A program made the translations under genes and the position numbers. From Elusimicrobiota bacterium (GTDB lineage Bacteria; CG03; SLGR01; PWQF01), in assembly GCA_003557485.1 (NCBI GenBank), contig PWOI01000050.1:1-14237 (forward strand): a stretch of DNA of 14,237 bases, read 5' to 3'. This document shows positions 6,233 to 13,124 of this stretch, piece after piece. Every line of letters starts with the position of its first letter. Position 1 is the stretch's first letter. A model generated the notes under the pieces. That model saw only the letters and a list, made by a program, of their open reading frames with translations, had not been told where the DNA came from and did no database searches.

Positions 6233-7011
6233 TCTCCCTTCAGATTTATTCTGACAGGTTCTATGCTGACGGCCCGGCCCGTGTCGTTGTCTGCATTTAT
6301 AATTACGCCTTCCAGCATCTCATTTCCTCCGGCAACTTTAAACCTGAAAGGCATGCCCGTAATAAATTTTTTAATAATCTCTTCTTTCTCAACGCCTATT
6401 ATGCCGTCCGGTGATCCGGTCATCCCTGCATCGCTTATGAAAGCCGTACCCCCTTCAAGTATTCGGGCATCCGAAGTCTGAACATGTGTATGGGTTCCTA
6501 TAACTGCGCTTACCCGGCCGTCCAGATACCTTGCCAGCGCCAGTTTTTCAGATGTAGCCTCGGCATGAATATCAACTATAATCACAGGAGTATGCCTGAC
6601 AGCCTTTTCTACGGCAATGTCAGCTGCCCTGAAAGGGCAATCCGAAGGCTCCATAAAAACCCTGCCCTGCAAATTCACAACAGCGATTTTCAGTGACTTC
6701 TTATCAAATATGCCCCATCCACGCCCGGGTGCTTCCGGAGGATAATTTGCCGGCCTAAGCAATTCAGGAAGAGAAACAGCCTCAAGAATCTCCGTTCTTT
6801 TCCATATGTGATTTCCCGAAGTGACAACATCTACTCCGCATGCCTTAATTTCTTCCATAGTAGCGGGAGTAAGGCCAAGCCCGCCGGCGGCGTTCTCTCC
6901 GTTTGCTATCACAAAATCGATCTGTTCTTCCTGAATCAGCCCCGGCAGGATCCGCGCAAGCGCCTGTCTGCCCGGTTTACCCACAATATCAGCTATAAAA
7001 AGTATTTTCAT
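6229..7011 (-). CDS. ymdB: YmdB-family metallophosphoesterase (TIGR00282 type)
   Basis: Calcineurin-like phosphodiesterase. The B. subtilis homologue YmdB hydrolyses cyclic nucleotides, affects development and biofilm choice, and is encoded next to rny. It has 260 aa, the family norm. Metal ligands are visible: D8 in FIADIVGKPGR, E39/N40 in ANGENAAGG, N67/H68 in SGNHIW, H149 in VDIHAEATSEK, and H174/H176 in IGTHTHVQTSD. The ISDAGMTGSPDGIIG block (192-206) is also typical. It begins with an ATGA overlap on the rny stop and ends with an ATGA overlap with folD, so it is coupled on both sides. The in vivo substrate in this organism is not shown by the sequence. Confidence 0.95.
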   Translation of the reverse strand: MKILFIADIVGKPGRQALARILPGLIQEEQIDFVIANGENAAGGLGLTPATMEEIKACGVDVVTSGNHIWKRTEILEAVSLPELLRPANYPPEAPGRGWGIFDKKSLKIAVVNLQGRVFMEPSDCPFRAADIAVEKAVRHTPVIIVDIHAEATSEKLALARYLDGRVSAVIGTHTHVQTSDARILEGGTAFISDAGMTGSPDGIIGVEKEEIIKKFITGMPFRFKVAGGNEMLEGVIINADNDTGRAVSIEPVRINLKGE

Positions 7012-8561
7012 TTTGCCACTTCCGTCATTCTGCTGCTTCTTATAACAGTTACCTTAACCTCCCCGGGATAATCTATATTCTCTTCTATTTTTCTTGCACA
7101 TTCCTTTGCAAGAGCGGCAGCTTTAAGGTCATCAACCTTATCCGGCTGAACTATTATCCTTATTTCCCTTCCCGCTGAGAGACAGTACGCCTCCTTTACC
7201 CCTTCAAAAGAAGCAGCTATTTCCTCAATTGAGCTCATCCGTTTTATATAATTGGTTATCTGCTGCCTTCTTGCCCCGGGACGGGAAGCTGATATACTGT
7301 CAGCGGCCTGAATCAGGACGGCCTCCGGAGTTTCCGGTTCCACGTCTCCGTGATGGCTCATTATGGCATTCTGAAGCCTTGCGCTTTCACCGTATTTTTT
7401 AGCAAGAGCCGCACCTATCTCAACGTGTGTGCCTTCCATCTCCCTGTCAACTGCCTTTCCAAGATCATGAAGAAGTCCGGCGCGGCGGGAAAATTCTGCA
7501 TCAAGTCCAAGTTCTTCTGCCATAACACCGGCGAATTTTGCCACCTCAACAGAATGGTGAAGGACATTCTGACCGTAGGACGTGCGGTACCGCATTTTAC
7601 CGAGTAGTTTAATCTCGTCATCACGCAGCCCTATTACCCCTGCTTCGGCAGCTGCATCCTCTCCTTCCTGAACGACAACATCTTCTACTTCTTTCCTTAT
7701 CTTCTCAACAATTTCCTCTATTCTGGACGGCTGTATTCTTCCGTCTTTAATCAGCTCATCCAGTGCGCGCCTTGCTATTTCCCGCCTTTCACCGTCAAAA
7801 GAAGAAAGTGACACAACCCCGGGAGTATCATCTATTATGATGTTAACTCCGGTTGCAGATTCCAATGCCCGGATGTTTCTTCCTTCTCTTCCTATTATTC
7901 TTCCTTTCATATCGTCGTCGGGAAGAGAAACATTGGTTACCGTAAGCTCTTCCGTTACTTCTGCGGCGTTGCCCTGTATGGCTCTGGCTATTACTTCTAT
8001 AGACTCTCTTTTTGCATCTTTTTTTGCACTTTCAACTATTGAATTATATAGCCGGTGGGCTTCGTCTTTTGCTTCTTCTTCAATTTGTTTCATCAGGCGT
8101 TCCCTTGCCTGCTTTGGAGACATCCTGGATATTTTTTCAAGGGTATCCTGTTCCCGGGACTGCATTTCCTTTAATGTTTTTTCCTTTTCACTGAAGGCAG
8201 CCTTGATTTGCTCTATTTCCCTGTCTTTTGCTTCTATTTCCTGCTGGCGTTTCTGAATTATATCCGCCTTTTTATCCAGGTCCTTTGAGCGCACCTCAAT
8301 CGATTTTCTCTCTTCTTCCAGTTTCTGTAAGTCCTGCTTTAATGATCCCTTAACTTCTTTTTCAGTTTCAGCCTTGATATCTCTGGCCTCAGCTTCTTTC
8401 TTCTCTAATTTTACCTGTGCTTCAGCCTTAACTGCTTCAAGCTGCCTGGTTACTTTTTCAAGTTCTTCCTGCCTCCCGGTGTTTTTTCCCTTGCGGGAAG
8501 TAAGAAGCAGAACAACAACCGCACCCGCGGCGGCGCCTATTACAGTATATAGTAAATTCAT
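7008..8561 (-). CDS. rny: Ribonuclease Y
   Basis: Membrane-anchored endoribonuclease that initiates mRNA decay. At 517 aa it matches the family. Domains in order: one N-terminal membrane segment (about 4-20, LYTVIGAAAGAVVVLLL), a long charged coiled coil (about 30-200), a KH RNA-binding domain with GRIIGREGRNIR (220-231), and an HD hydrolase domain with HHSVEVAKF (335-343), GLLHDLGKAVD (362-372; H365/D366) and the later Asp in IQAADSISASRPGARR (417-432). It starts 16 nt after the cyclo-ligase stop with a strong AAAGGAG. The pairing with ymdB is the conserved Rny/YmdB arrangement. No anomalies seen. Confidence 0.98.
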   Translation of the reverse strand: MNLLYTVIGAAAGAVVVLLLTSRKGKNTGRQEELEKVTRQLEAVKAEAQVKLEKKEAEARDIKAETEKEVKGSLKQDLQKLEEERKSIEVRSKDLDKKADIIQKRQQEIEAKDREIEQIKAAFSEKEKTLKEMQSREQDTLEKISRMSPKQARERLMKQIEEEAKDEAHRLYNSIVESAKKDAKRESIEVIARAIQGNAAEVTEELTVTNVSLPDDDMKGRIIGREGRNIRALESATGVNIIIDDTPGVVSLSSFDGERREIARRALDELIKDGRIQPSRIEEIVEKIRKEVEDVVVQEGEDAAAEAGVIGLRDDEIKLLGKMRYRTSYGQNVLHHSVEVAKFAGVMAEELGLDAEFSRRAGLLHDLGKAVDREMEGTHVEIGAALAKKYGESARLQNAIMSHHGDVEPETPEAVLIQAADSISASRPGARRQQITNYIKRMSSIEEIAASFEGVKEAYCLSAGREIRIIVQPDKVDDLKAAALAKECARKIEENIDYPGEVKVTVIRSSRMTEVAK

Positions 8562-8570
8562 GTTTATTTT

Positions 8571-8577
8571 CTCCTTT
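8571..8577 (-). promoter_or_regulatory. Strong Shine-Dalgarno for rny
   Basis: AAAGGAG lies nine bases before the rny ATG in one of the few real gaps of this region. Most other genes here rely on stop/start overlap, so rny probably receives independent ribosome loading and higher expression. Inference from the motif only. Confidence 0.7.
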
Positions 8578-9114
8578 CTATCTTTCCGTTACAACTTTTT
8601 TAACCTTAATATCATGCCGTTCACACGGAAGGTTATTTTCAATCCCGAAAGAGTAACAAAGCCCTATCGTATCTGTTTCTTCCGTAAGCTTAGCAAGAAA
8701 CCTGTCATAATAGCCGCCGCCGCGGCCCAGCCGGGCGCCCGAAGAAGTAAAACATACCCCCGGAACTACAATAACATCCAGATCTTCGGGATTTACAGTT
8801 TCTGTCCGGAGGGGCTGCGGTATTTCATACAACCCGGTTTCAAGTTCGGATATATTATTCAGGCGGTACGGAATTATTTTCCCGTCTTCTATCCGGGGAG
8901 CATAAACTATTTTCCCTGCCTCTATAAGTTTTTCAATGAGTTCCCGCGTGTCGGGTTCCCCTTGCACCGATACATACACCATCTCTTTTTCCGCTTTTTT
9001 CACAGCCGGAAGTTTCATCAGCCTGTTCAGTATTTTTATGTCCGCTTTTCTTTTTTCAGCTTTGTCAAAACCACGGCGAAGGCATATGTGTTTTTCTCTA
9101 AGTCCCTGTTTCAT
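8578..9114 (-). CDS. 5-formyltetrahydrofolate cyclo-ligase
   Basis: ATP-dependent enzyme converting 5-formyl-THF to 5,10-methenyl-THF (MTHFS; called ygfA/fau in E. coli). It has 178 aa, usual length. N-terminal basic helix with KQGLREKH; YVSVQGEPDTREL (47-59); VIVVPGVCF (114-122); the nucleotide-binding signature GARLGRGGGYYDRFL (126-140); and the C-terminal LPCERHDIKVKKVVTE (162-177), which matches the family's LPxExHD...VVTE. In many proteobacteria this gene directly follows zapA and 6S RNA; here rarA is inserted between them. ATGA overlap with rarA; its product feeds the same folate pool as FolD downstream. Confidence 0.95.
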   Translation of the reverse strand: MKQGLREKHICLRRGFDKAEKRKADIKILNRLMKLPAVKKAEKEMVYVSVQGEPDTRELIEKLIEAGKIVYAPRIEDGKIIPYRLNNISELETGLYEIPQPLRTETVNPEDLDVIVVPGVCFTSSGARLGRGGGYYDRFLAKLTEETDTIGLCYSFGIENNLPCERHDIKVKKVVTER

Positions 9115-10397
9115 TTTTCGGAATTTTCCTTTATAAACTTCATATACCTGCGTATATATTTTTCATGCCCCCTGTTTGATGGGGAGTAAAAATTTTTATC
9201 TTCGCTCATATATTTCTGGCGCACGTGACCGTACCTGAAGTCATGCGGATAAAGATACCTGTCAGCTCCCCTTTTTGTAAGGTGGCCGGGGACGGAAAAA
9301 CTTCCGCCTTTTTCTATATCTTTACTGGCCCTGTTTAAAGCCATATAGGAAGCATTGCTTTTAGGTGCAGTTGCTATATATACGGCCGCCTGCGCAAGTA
9401 TTATTCCGGCTTCGGGAAAACCTACTTTTTCAACACTGTCAAGAGCGGCGGAGGCAATAAGAAGCGCCTGGGGGTCAGCATTTCCCACATCTTCAGAAGC
9501 GCAGATAGCTATTCTGCGTGCGATAAACCTTTCATCTTCGCCGGAAGAGATCATTTTTGCAAGATAATATACGGCTGCATCCGGATCCGACCCTCTCATA
9601 CTTTTTATGAAAGCGGATATAGTATCATAATGCTGATCGCCGGTGCGGTCATATATTAATTTTTTATCAGAAGAAAGCAGTTCTACAGTTTTGCAGTCTA
9701 TCGTTCCTGACGGGTTGGAAGCGGACGCTGTTTCAAGAATATTAAGAGCATAACGGGCATCACCTGCAGATTTACGGGCTATCAGTTCAGCGGCCTGTTT
9801 TTCCAGGCAGCTGCTTTTCCGTCCCAGTCCTCTTTCTTTGTCCTTAACGGCATATTCGAGTATCTTGACTATATCTTTCCTATCTAAAGGCTTGAACTCA
9901 AATACAGAGGCCCTGGAAAGGAGTGGCCCCACAATAAAGTAATAGGGGTTTTCTGTGGTTATGCCGGCAAGGCTAATGTTTCCTTCTTCTACATCCGGAA
10001 GAAGAGCTTCCTGCTGAACACGTGAGAACCTGTGAAACTCGTCAACAATAAGCAGAGTTTTTGTTCCGTTTGAATTCATGCGGTTCTGTCCCTTGAGAAC
10101 GGCCTGTCTCAATTCTCTTACTCCGGAGCTTACAGCGTTTAATTTTTCAACTTCCGCATTTATTACGGAAGCAATAATTGAAGCCAGTGCTGTTTTTCCG
10201 CATCCTGGCGGGCCGTGAAATATAACAGAAAAAACCTTACCGGCCTCGATCATTGTTCTGAGCTGGCTTCCTGAAGAAAGAATATGCCCCTGGCCTGCAA
10301 ACTCATCAAGGGAGCGGGGACGCATACGCCAGGCCAGCGGTCTTTCTTTAAAAAACCTGGCTCTCATATATGCGTTTTTTTCAAATAAATCTTTCAT
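9111..10397 (-). CDS. rarA: Replication-associated recombination protein A (RarA/MgsA AAA+ ATPase)
   Basis: Clamp-loader-related AAA+ ATPase acting at stalled replication forks. At 428 aa it is normal length. It starts MKDLF, then PLAWRMRPRSLDEFAGQGHIL (20-40), the family N-terminus. Walker A is GPPGCGKTA (62-70) and Walker B LLIVDEFHRFS (115-125). The sensor region ITTENPYYFIVGPLLSR (146-162) follows. The C-terminal tetramerisation part has MRGSDPDAAVYYLAKM, ARRIAICASEDVGNADP and APKSNASYMAL. The usual DEIHRF is DEFHRF here. The ATG lies five bases after the U-tract of the 6S RNA, with no clear Shine-Dalgarno apart from the G-run belonging to the 6S closing stem, so its expression must be tied to 6S transcription or readthrough. 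Confidence 0.96.
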   Translation of the reverse strand: MKDLFEKNAYMRARFFKERPLAWRMRPRSLDEFAGQGHILSSGSQLRTMIEAGKVFSVIFHGPPGCGKTALASIIASVINAEVEKLNAVSSGVRELRQAVLKGQNRMNSNGTKTLLIVDEFHRFSRVQQEALLPDVEEGNISLAGITTENPYYFIVGPLLSRASVFEFKPLDRKDIVKILEYAVKDKERGLGRKSSCLEKQAAELIARKSAGDARYALNILETASASNPSGTIDCKTVELLSSDKKLIYDRTGDQHYDTISAFIKSMRGSDPDAAVYYLAKMISSGEDERFIARRIAICASEDVGNADPQALLIASAALDSVEKVGFPEAGIILAQAAVYIATAPKSNASYMALNRASKDIEKGGSFSVPGHLTKRGADRYLYPHDFRYGHVRQKYMSEDKNFYSPSNRGHEKYIRRYMKFIKENSEK

Positions 10398-10402
10398 AAT
10401 AT

Positions 10403-10420
10403 AAAAAACCCCCGCAATGC
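10403..10420 (-). terminator. Rho-independent-like 3' end of 6S RNA
   Basis: The 3' arm of the closing stem (GCATTGCGGGGG) runs straight into TTTTTT at 10403-10408. The GC-rich long-range stem followed by a U-tract could terminate transcription or define the processed 3' end. It lies only five bases before the rarA ATG, so any termination here would reduce rarA. Confidence 0.55.
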
Positions 10421-10558
10421 CGTAAATTTGCCAAAATTGAGCTTCATTTTAAATAGTGGTTGTCCTGCCCCGTCGGCCAAGGCCAATCGGGGACGCGGAT
10501 TCCCATTTAATTTAGTGTAGGCTCAATTTGACCGCTCTACACGAACACCGCAGGGGTT
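10405..10558 (-). ncRNA. ssrS: 6S RNA
   Basis: Small RNA that mimics an open promoter and sequesters housekeeping RNA polymerase. It fills the only sizeable intergenic gap, directly after zapA, the classical ssrS position. The minus strand begins with CCCCTGCGGTGTTCG, a familiar 6S 5' signature. The closing stem pairs 10546-10556 (CCCCTGCGGTG) with 10410-10420 (GCATTGCGGGG), eleven pairs including wobbles. A second stem pairs CAAATTGAGC (10521-10530) with GCTCAATTTTGG (10431-10442). The terminal hairpin lies at 10468-10492: CCCCG, then TTGGC with loop CTTG and GCCGA, then CGGGG, with one bulged A. An A/T-rich central bubble separates them. TGAGCC in the 5' strand matches TGAGCC just before the E. 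coli pRNA start region. Ends are estimated within a few bases; about 154 nt is somewhat short for the family (about 180). Confidence 0.9.
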
Positions 10559-10561
10559 AAT

Positions 10562-10849
10562 CTAAATTACTTCTTCTATTAAGTTGTTAAGGTGCTTTAT
10601 ATCTTCTTCAAGGGCATGGCTGCTCCCTGATTTGGTTTCCTGTAATTGAAGATATCTGTCTATTATTCTAAGCGCTGCCAGCATCATAAGCTTGTAGCTG
10701 TCAACCGTTCCGGTCTGATCTTCAACACTTTTTATTTCATCATTCAGAATATGACCAAGATTTTTCATATAAAGCGGGGACCACTTATCGTCTACAATCG
10801 TATACATCCTACCCGCCACCTCAATCTGTGCTGATTCTCTTTCCGGCAT
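10562..10849 (-). CDS. zapA: Cell division protein ZapA
   Basis: Z-ring-associated protein that cross-links FtsZ filaments. It has 95 aa, as expected. The N-terminal small alpha/beta domain contains IEVAGRMYTI (9-18), and the C-terminal half is helical and coiled-coil forming (about 50-95), with the typical YKLMMLAALRIIDRYLQL stretch (52-69). It lies 17 nt after the coiled-coil gene, with GAGGA upstream, and immediately before 6S RNA. That context strengthens the call, which would be moderate from sequence alone. Confidence 0.9.
   Translation of the reverse strand: MPERESAQIEVAGRMYTIVDDKWSPLYMKNLGHILNDEIKSVEDQTGTVDSYKLMMLAALRIIDRYLQLQETKSGSSHALEEDIKHLNNLIEEVI
10564..10590 (-). promoter_or_regulatory. 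Candidate promoter for 6S RNA inside the zapA 3' end
   Basis: Minus-strand TTAACA (10585-10590; close to TTGACA) is separated by 15 bases from TAATTT (10564-10569), which would place a start near 10557-10558, just where the 6S 5' signature begins. The -10 match is weak and the spacer short, so this is a suggestion. The alternative is processing from the pheST-zapA transcript. Confidence 0.3.
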
Positions 10850-10866
10850 AATTTATTTAAATTTCC

Positions 10867-11112
10867 TCATTTTACTTCTTCAAGCTTTTTTATAACACCA
10901 TTGATTTTTTCTGCTATTTTCTGCCTTTCGTTTAACAACTTTCTGTTTTTCTGTGCGATGCCCGGTACTTCACCGGCCTGATTTTCAAAATAGTCTAAAT
11001 TCTTTTTAAGACGTTCATTCTCTTCTTTATATTTTTCGCTTTCTTCATTCAGTTCCGAAAACTTTTTAACAAGCTCTTCTACTTTTAATTTTAGATCGTT
11101 AAAACCCCTCAT
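10867..11112 (-). CDS. Short coiled-coil protein, ZapB-like
   Basis: An 81-aa, almost wholly helical, highly charged protein (LKLKVEELVKKFSELNEESEKYKEENERL from residue 7, hydrophobics in heptad spacing). There is one helix-breaking GEVPGI near residue 48, then a second helix. No signal peptide and no cysteines. Length, composition and the position just upstream of zapA fit the small ZapB/TIGR02449-type division proteins that bind ZapA, but coiled coils resemble one another, so the assignment rests mainly on context. The start overlaps the pheT stop as TGATG, with only a weak GAGAGA upstream. Confidence 0.75.
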   Translation of the reverse strand: MRGFNDLKLKVEELVKKFSELNEESEKYKEENERLKKNLDYFENQAGEVPGIAQKNRKLLNERQKIAEKINGVIKKLEEVK

Positions 11113-13124
11113 CAGTTCTCTCTGAGCCTTACCGACAGGCCGTCTCTTAAGTTTTTTATTATCCGGTCCATTTTATCGTCTACCTGAGCTGATTTCAGTG
11201 TTCCGTCTGGAGAGTTGAATTCAAGCCTGTAAGCCATGCTTTTTGAGCCTTCCTTAATACCTTTTCCCGTATAAACATCAAAAAGATATATGTTCCTCAG
11301 CATATCCTCCCCTCCTGCAAAAATGTTATCATAAATCTCAGAGTGTGTCAACTTAGCGTCAGCAACAATACTGATATCCCTGTACACGGACGGAAATTCG
11401 CTCCAGGGCCGGAATTTTACATCTTTTATCAAATTTCCGTCAAACACTTCAGGGTTTAAATACGAACCGGTAAATCTCTCTTCTTTTATGCCAAGTATTT
11501 CAAGTATCTCTTTTTTTACAACACCGAAAAAGCCGGCTTCTTTCCCTTTAATAATCAATGCCGCGCTTCTTTCTTTTTCAAACCAGACAGAATCTATCCC
11601 GTAGGTCAAAGAATACTCCTGCTTCATTTCTTCAAGAACTCCGATAGCAGCTGCCTTAACATCAAAAAAATCACTGTTTTTTTCAACAAGCGCAAGTCTT
11701 TCCTCTTCAACAGCCCCTTTTATCCCTTTTCGGAAAACACTTCCTCTCTCGTAAAGTTTCACCCGGTCATTGCTTCTGTTTATATTATAAAGGGAAGCTT
11801 TTAACAGGCCCGAAAGAAGGTCCGGCCTCAGTATGTCAAAATTTTCCGTTATGGGGTTTTCCACCTCAACAGGCTTAAAACCATTTCCGGAATATATTTT
11901 TTCCATAATGCTGCCATCGCAGAGGGTAGGAGTACTAATCTGAAAGAAACCCGCTCCCCTGAGAAACTCTTCAGCCCTTTCAAATATATCCTCAGGCAGA
12001 ATCAGGTCCGTTTCGGCTGACACATTCGGCATAGTTTCCGGTATTCTGTCGTACCCATAGCACCTCGCAATCTCTTCTATAAGATCTATTTCCCGGCTTA
12101 CATCGCTGCGGAAAGAAGGAGGAACCACCTGAAGGCGCGGACTCTTTCCGTTTACAGTAAAATCCAGTTCCCTGAGATATTTTTTAATCTCTTTTTCAGG
12201 GATTTCGCAGCCCAAAACGCTTTTTACTTTATCAATATCAAGTTCTATAGAGTAAAGTTCAGAAGAGTTACCGGAATATTCTAACTCGGACGCTGATATA
12301 TCACCGCTGCAGATTTCAGCCATCAGGCCTGCAGCCCTAAGTAAAGACTTCCTGACCCCGCCGGGATCCACCCCTCTGGAAAAACGGTATGAACTCTCTG
12401 TAATGATACCGTGAAGGGACTCGGAACAGGAAACGGAAGACGGAAGAAAAAAGGCAGCTTCCAACAGTACGGTATCCGTAGATGATGAGACTGCTGTAGA
12501 CTCACCTCCCATAACACCGGCAAGAGCAATCGGGCCGCTGCCGTCCGCGATGACAATTTCATCTCCCTGAAGCTGCCTGTCAATTCCGTCCAGAGTAAAT
12601 ATATTCTCTCCTTTTTTCGCCTCCCTTACGGTTATCTCGGAACCGGTTATTTTCGCGGCGTCAAAAGCGTGGAGAGGTTGTCCGGTTTCCATAAGAACAT
12701 AGTTTGTTATATCAACTATGCTGTTCTGGGGACGCACCCCGCAGTCTATTAGCCGTTCTTTAAGCCATTTCGGCGATTGTGCTGCTTTGAGGGCAGTTAC
12801 AAACTTAAGATAATAGAGAGGACATTTTTCGGGACATCTGTTTTTTATTGAAAAATCCGGGGTTCTTTCTCCTGATTCGCTCGCCCCGGAACCGACATCA
12901 TATTTAAGTTTTCTCCCTAAAGCGACGGCAACTTCCCGCGCTACGCCAATAATACTGGCGCAGTCTCCCCGGTTGGGTGTAAGCTCTATCTCTATGATCT
13001 TTCCTGTAAGGCCATCCGTTACTTCCTCAACTTCAAGACCTCGTAGAGTCAGAATCTCCGCAAGTTCTTCAGCCGAAGGAAGGCCGTCCACATATTCTTT
13101 GAGCCACAGCAGGGGAACTTTCAT
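11112..13124 (-). CDS. pheT: Phenylalanyl-tRNA synthetase beta subunit lacking the B2 (EMAP-like) domain
   Basis: Beta chain of the alpha2-beta2 PheRS, carrying editing and tRNA-recognition domains. At 670 aa it is well below the usual bacterial 780-800. Seen: B1 start VPLLWLKEYVDGLPSAEELAEIL (3-25) and GLEVEEV (29-35). Then, within about eight residues, it passes to IEIELTPNRGDC (44-55), which normally follows a roughly 110-residue tRNA-binding insertion. The rest is in order: PQNSIVDITNYVLMETGQPLHAFD (132-155), ALAGVMGG (200-207), RFSRGVDP (247-254), LIEEIARCYGYDRIP (348-362), ILRPDLLSGLL (431-441) and the C-terminal FDX-ACB anticodon domain (about 570-670, FRPWSEFPSVYRDISIV). A stretch before DFFDVKA (about 485) also looks shortened. 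No frame break seen. TGATG junctions on both sides couple it to pheS and the coiled-coil gene. Confidence 0.97.
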   Translation of the reverse strand: MKVPLLWLKEYVDGLPSAEELAEILTLRGLEVEEVTDGLTGKIIEIELTPNRGDCASIIGVAREVAVALGRKLKYDVGSGASESGERTPDFSIKNRCPEKCPLYYLKFVTALKAAQSPKWLKERLIDCGVRPQNSIVDITNYVLMETGQPLHAFDAAKITGSEITVREAKKGENIFTLDGIDRQLQGDEIVIADGSGPIALAGVMGGESTAVSSSTDTVLLEAAFFLPSSVSCSESLHGIITESSYRFSRGVDPGGVRKSLLRAAGLMAEICSGDISASELEYSGNSSELYSIELDIDKVKSVLGCEIPEKEIKKYLRELDFTVNGKSPRLQVVPPSFRSDVSREIDLIEEIARCYGYDRIPETMPNVSAETDLILPEDIFERAEEFLRGAGFFQISTPTLCDGSIMEKIYSGNGFKPVEVENPITENFDILRPDLLSGLLKASLYNINRSNDRVKLYERGSVFRKGIKGAVEEERLALVEKNSDFFDVKAAAIGVLEEMKQEYSLTYGIDSVWFEKERSAALIIKGKEAGFFGVVKKEILEILGIKEERFTGSYLNPEVFDGNLIKDVKFRPWSEFPSVYRDISIVADAKLTHSEIYDNIFAGGEDMLRNIYLFDVYTGKGIKEGSKSMAYRLEFNSPDGTLKSAQVDDKMDRIIKNLRDGLSVRLREN

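Follow-up and report, generated by a model that had tools for sequence, protein, structure and literature searches.

A divergent 6S RNA gene between zapA and rarA in a poorly studied bacterial phylum

Does the non-coding gap between zapA and rarA in this genome hold an RNA gene and, if so, of which family? The gap measures 164 nt (10398-10561 of the window, i.e. of the whole 14,237-nt stretch of DNA analysed), running from the zapA stop codon (10564-10562) to the rarA start (10397). Coding content was ruled out, with no ORF of at least 80 aa inside. A preliminary description of this DNA had assigned the gap to 6S RNA, the familiar small RNA that holds RNA polymerase in check, on the minus strand.

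Identity and neighbourhood of the gap RNA

The whole window was scanned with cmscan against all 4227 Rfam families. This resulted in a single match, to RF00013 (6S/SsrS) on the minus strand at 10559-10405, which covered the full length of the model (all 187 positions) and scored 50.0 bits, above the gathering score of 46.4 (E = 1.2e-7), bearing out both the name and the strand given earlier (Table 1). Competing matches in the region at E <= 10 amounted to one chance match of 11.8 bits, and one 6S copy was found in the 2.07-Mb assembly. The RNA had also been called short (about 154 nt) and divergent, in agreement with a match that spans 155 nt and exceeds the gathering score by only 3.6 bits. 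As E. coli ssrS reaches 139.8 bits under the same model, the window RNA is a distant yet valid member of RF00013. An RNA on the plus strand was rejected (54.7 versus 182.3 bits for the minus strand, with Rfam matching the minus strand alone); the plus strand scores as well because the long stems resemble each other on both strands.

Minus-strand gene order in the window is pheS-pheT-zapB-zapA-(gap)-rarA-fthC-rny onwards, with pheS and pheT named from their translated sequence. The location of ssrS downstream of zapA, given in the preliminary description as common, is documented for beta- and gamma-proteobacteria, where the gene is placed after zapB-zapA and often ahead of FAU1 (PMC7641849), and is seen in E. 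coli K-12, where ssrS follows zapA and fau comes next after ssrS.

Within the phylum, RF00013 matches at E <= 0.001 were obtained for 9 of 16 genomes. The window and four relatives exceeded the gathering score, and the four genomes below it had E values of at most 1.3e-6. All nine share the order zapB-zapA-6S-rarA, the ORFs of the relatives being named by similarity to the window genes. Identity as 6S RNA is supported by sequence and structure homology, covariation, conserved location and the presence in the genome of an RpoD-like primary sigma factor (581 aa; 342 bits, a little under the TIGR02393 cut-off of 354). We consider it nearly certain that the gap holds a 6S RNA gene, co-directional with zapA and rarA, whose product would bind the polymerase holoenzyme and be released by pRNA synthesis. 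Weighing against this are the narrow margin over the gathering score, the four genomes below it, the short length, the weak support for helix P2 and the negative scan for a sigma-70-type promoter upstream (see below). Divergence aside, the RNA is ordinary for this known family.

Table 1. Coordinates of the RNA, its structural parts, neighbouring genes and the f6 candidates (window positions unless a locus is given).
Feature	Position	Strand	Evidence or remark
6S RNA (ssrS) gene, ~155 nt	10405-10559	-	RF00013, 50.0 bits, model 1-187; covariation in nine relatives
Closing stem (P1), 5' strand	10541-10558	-	Partner 10423-10407; 96.7% of cells paired, 4 double-change pairs
Closing stem (P1), 3' strand	10407-10423	-	As for P1 5' strand
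P2 5' strand, downstream helix beside bubble	10521-10529	-	Partner 10442-10434; part of presumed pRNA template
P2 3' strand	10434-10442	-	Pairs with 10521-10529
Presumed pRNA template	10517-10530	-	Predicted pRNA 5'-GUAGGCUCAAUUUG; putative start from RF00013 alignment of both RNAs
Central bubble, 5' side	10505-10520	-	Consensus unpaired; conserved CUACAC at its start
Central bubble, 3' side	10443-10457	-	Consensus unpaired; poor conservation
Apical stem with terminal hairpin (10492-10468)	10458-10504	-	Helices 3-5; 93-100% of cells paired, 6 double-change pairs
U-tract after closing stem, possible terminator	10403-10408	-	Sequence
zapA, upstream neighbour of 6S	10562-10849	-	Pfam PF05164 (ZapA), 48.2 bits
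zapB-like coiled-coil gene	10867-11112	-	Pfam PF06005, 29.5 bits, slightly below 31.5 cut-off
rarA (mgsA), downstream neighbour	9111-10397	-	Pfam PF12002 (MgsA_C), 188 bits; start 7 nt past RNA model end
5-formyltetrahydrofolate cyclo-ligase (fthC/fau/ygfA)	8578-9114	-	Pfam PF01812, 151.8 bits
f6 6S-like RNAs, zapA-rarA gap	L104:1832-1993, L103:1420-1258 (-), L102:1833-1995, L101:1917-2078, L097:1822-1983, L091:582-737		R1 match

Fold, covariation and the predicted product RNA

The predicted fold of the RNA has an energy of -65.1 kcal/mol (z = -5.35; 0/200 shuffles equally stable), and none of the other 155-nt stretches sampled on both window strands (n = 910) was as stable. A rod of closing stem, central bubble and apical stem was recovered in the MFE, in the consensus fold and in the full model alignment. 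The elements listed in the preliminary description are all present, namely CCCCTGCGGTGTTCG on the minus strand, two stems (one of them the closing stem), a hairpin of 25 nt at 10492-10468 and the U-tract at 10408-10403, though two of them needed correction. The closing stem is real but longer than the 11 bp stated, as the MFE has 14 contiguous pairs (G-U included) and more beyond, and the hairpin, described as terminal, forms the apex of the rod and is no 3' terminator. A search of the 6S strand for a consensus terminator found none.

The nine sequences were aligned with MAFFT alone, and covariation was assessed for a 41-pair structure that left 92.3% of cells paired. Double changes occurred in 11 of the 41 pairs, compared with 3.1 +/- 1.3 in shuffles (0/500 reached the observed value), although related sequences can surpass shuffles to some degree. 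The covariation score was 0.202, against 0.115 +/- 0.013 in shuffles and at most 0.068 with partners slid, a control tilted in favour of the structure, whose pairs had been taken from the alignment consensus together with the window RNA. Of these measures, the two based on double changes carry more weight. Both checks proposed earlier for the gap, covariance-model matches in the window and related genomes and covariation of the stems, thus came out positive, and the compensatory changes span five families. Conservation is strongest in the closing stem, the P2 5' strand and the start of the bubble. P2 is the weakest helix (in the MAFFT alignment, 77.8% of its cells pair), partly because two sequences are misaligned.

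Known 6S RNAs imitate an open promoter and serve as template for a pRNA, whose synthesis sets off their release (PMC8876501). In the RF00013 alignment, U44 of E. coli, the start of its pRNA, aligns with C43 of the window RNA (window 10517), and the predicted window pRNA is GUAGGCUCAAUUUG, compared with AUCGGCUCAGGGGA in E. coli. Alignment of the bubble to E. coli 6S yields GUAGGCUCAA for the pRNA, where E. coli has AUCGGCUCAG, and GG occupies positions 4/5. A GG at 4/5 or 5/6 is reported to be a general pRNA feature, conserved beyond lactic acid bacteria (PMC8414754). Both RNAs carry a GAGCC block at the bubble, and the resulting GGCUCA in the predicted pRNA is common to E. coli and most close relatives. 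The presumed start at C differs from the U of E. coli and is shared with B. subtilis 6S-1 (C40; PMC8876501). The predicted pRNA is GUAGGCUCA in all eight genomes of the same order, window included, and GUUGGCUC in an f5 genome (G001) and several Omnitrophota. When the pRNA-binding stretch was blocked during folding to look for a release hairpin, the nine relatives shared no common helix; the same blocked fold of E. coli gave a 3'-bubble hairpin that matches the published one.

From membership of the 6S family we infer expression, polymerase binding, product RNA synthesis and release. The rod with its open central bubble would imitate an open promoter, bind RNA polymerase holoenzyme bearing the primary sigma factor and restrain it as growth slows. 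Once nucleotides return, the polymerase would copy a short product RNA, predicted to begin 5'-GUAGGCUCAA..., off the 5' side of the bubble, and this product would open the downstream helix so that the enzyme is released. The start site and the release are, for the window RNA, predictions.

The junction with rarA and rival explanations

The RNA is tightly packed between its neighbours: the window model starts 2 nt past the zapA stop codon, and 7 nt separate its end from the rarA start. Other relatives are comparably tight on the zapA side and several also on the rarA side. No sigma-70-type promoter was found by consensus scan just upstream of the RNA on the minus strand, so the 6S RNA is probably either processed out of a zapA transcript or made from a promoter inside zapA that the scan did not recognise. 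Translation of rarA may depend on 3'-end processing of 6S. The interval 10405-10397 is too short to accommodate a rarA leader or ribosome-binding site of its own apart from the 6S closing stem.

The same packing invites the explanation that the RNA is only a structured leader or attenuator acting in cis on rarA, its long stem and U-tract governing read-through or access to the start codon. In its favour, the RNA of several relatives ends 4-10 nt ahead of the rarA start, the U-tract comes after the closing stem, and a separate rarA leader would not fit. Yet the homology to 6S is full-length and includes a pRNA-template-like block common to E. coli, whose RNA of the same type precedes fau, not rarA, and about 55 nt separate 6S from rarA in two relatives (G010 and G011). 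A purely cis role is thus very unlikely, and a cis role would in any case be compatible with 6S function.

An RNA resembling Ms1 of Actinobacteria, which would bind core RNA polymerase and not the sigma-70 holoenzyme, can be proposed on the grounds that Ms1 is structurally related to 6S (PMC9130861) and that the binding partner of the window RNA is deduced from its family. Against this, the match is to RF00013, with the one chance hit as the other Rfam match in the region at E <= 10, and the bubble has the pRNA-template-like block. No Ms1-type family was among these matches, from a library that may hold no Ms1-type model. We regard this possibility as extremely improbable. The low Rfam score and short length could also be those of a decayed, non-functional 6S relic, a reading that is barely conceivable given compensatory changes over five families and strong conservation of the closing stem, P2 5' strand and bubble start.

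Distribution within the phylum and gene order beyond it

The phylum genomes that lacked an Rfam match (7/16) all belong to family f6. In six of these seven the zapA-rarA gap was located, at 180-365 nt, and an Rfam scan of the six gaps at E <= 10 gave nothing 6S-like. With the phylum model R1 and filters off, the best match at each of the six f6 loci falls in the zapA-rarA gap (38.6, 37.2, 30.5, 27.7, 18.4 and 16.8 bits; E from 7e-8 to 0.01). These six RNAs covary when taken alone (double changes in 11 of 45 pairs; 2/500 shuffles reach the observed value), and model R2, built from them, recovers the f5 6S (G001) at 46.5 bits and, with weak scores in the correct place, most others. It is quite probable that the six are diverged 6S RNAs. 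Loss of 6S in f6, suggested by its absence from other searches, was rejected on the unfiltered R1 search of the gaps, and the apparent absence in part of the phylum most likely reflects limited model sensitivity. The seventh f6 genome (G007) had no 6S, zapA or rarA match; because the two flanking genes are also missing, an assembly gap is likelier than loss. Using the phylum model and gene order, the count of phylum genomes with 6S rises from 9/16 to 15/16. The window RNA adds a supported 6S RNA to a poorly studied phylum with few genomes.

The f6 bubble reads GGGCUCUAAGAAG in place of GAGCCUACAC, so the f6 pRNA template would differ. A broader proposal, that the packing of 6S between zapA and rarA in the phylum, with almost no spare bases, lets its 3'-end formation or processing also set rarA expression, and that the f6 6S does the same job with a rewritten bubble and pRNA template, is unlikely in our estimation.

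The window RNA resembles E. coli 6S in its rod, its position after zapA and the nearby fthC/fau, and differs in its length (155 versus 183 nt), shorter apical arm, lower score (50 versus 139.8 bits) and the presence of rarA between the RNA and fthC. With B. subtilis 6S-1 and the 6S of lactic acid bacteria it shares rarA as a neighbour (PMC8414754), a parallel that the preliminary description does not mention. There, rarA precedes 6S in lactic acid bacteria and is oppositely directed in B. subtilis (PMC8414754), whereas in the window it is downstream in the same direction and zapB-zapA lie upstream of 6S. The window unites both known sets of 6S neighbours, zapA/fau (Proteobacteria) and rarA (Firmicutes). 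No mention of the combined order was found in the open papers covered. Since neighbours known separately from the two groups are joined here, the order zapB-zapA-6S-rarA-fthC suggests an old arrangement.

Furthermore, R1 places 6S upstream of rarA in many named Omnitrophota, one Nitrospirae and two Elusimicrobia loci, and Rfam confirmed 14 of 20 submitted loci. Scores for the Omnitrophota and Elusimicrobia RNAs, which are diverged in sequence from the window RNA, were 31-67 bits under R1 (L010, L024, L078, L026, L032). As in the window, fthC and rny lie further downstream in several of these loci; unlike the window, most Omnitrophota have pheT before 6S and no zapA match. Both Elusimicrobia loci have a ZapA-sized ORF before 6S, with a zapB-like match in one, these ORFs being judged by size or similarity. 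A 6S-rarA-fthC-rny block with pheT or zapB/zapA-sized genes upstream was observed at window 7008-13124 and in L078, L029, L026 and L032. Lastly, R1 gave 6S-like matches below the Rfam gathering score at L010:2779-2955 (Omnitrophota) and at L026:2444-2616 and L032:585-760 (Endomicrobium and another member of the Elusimicrobia).
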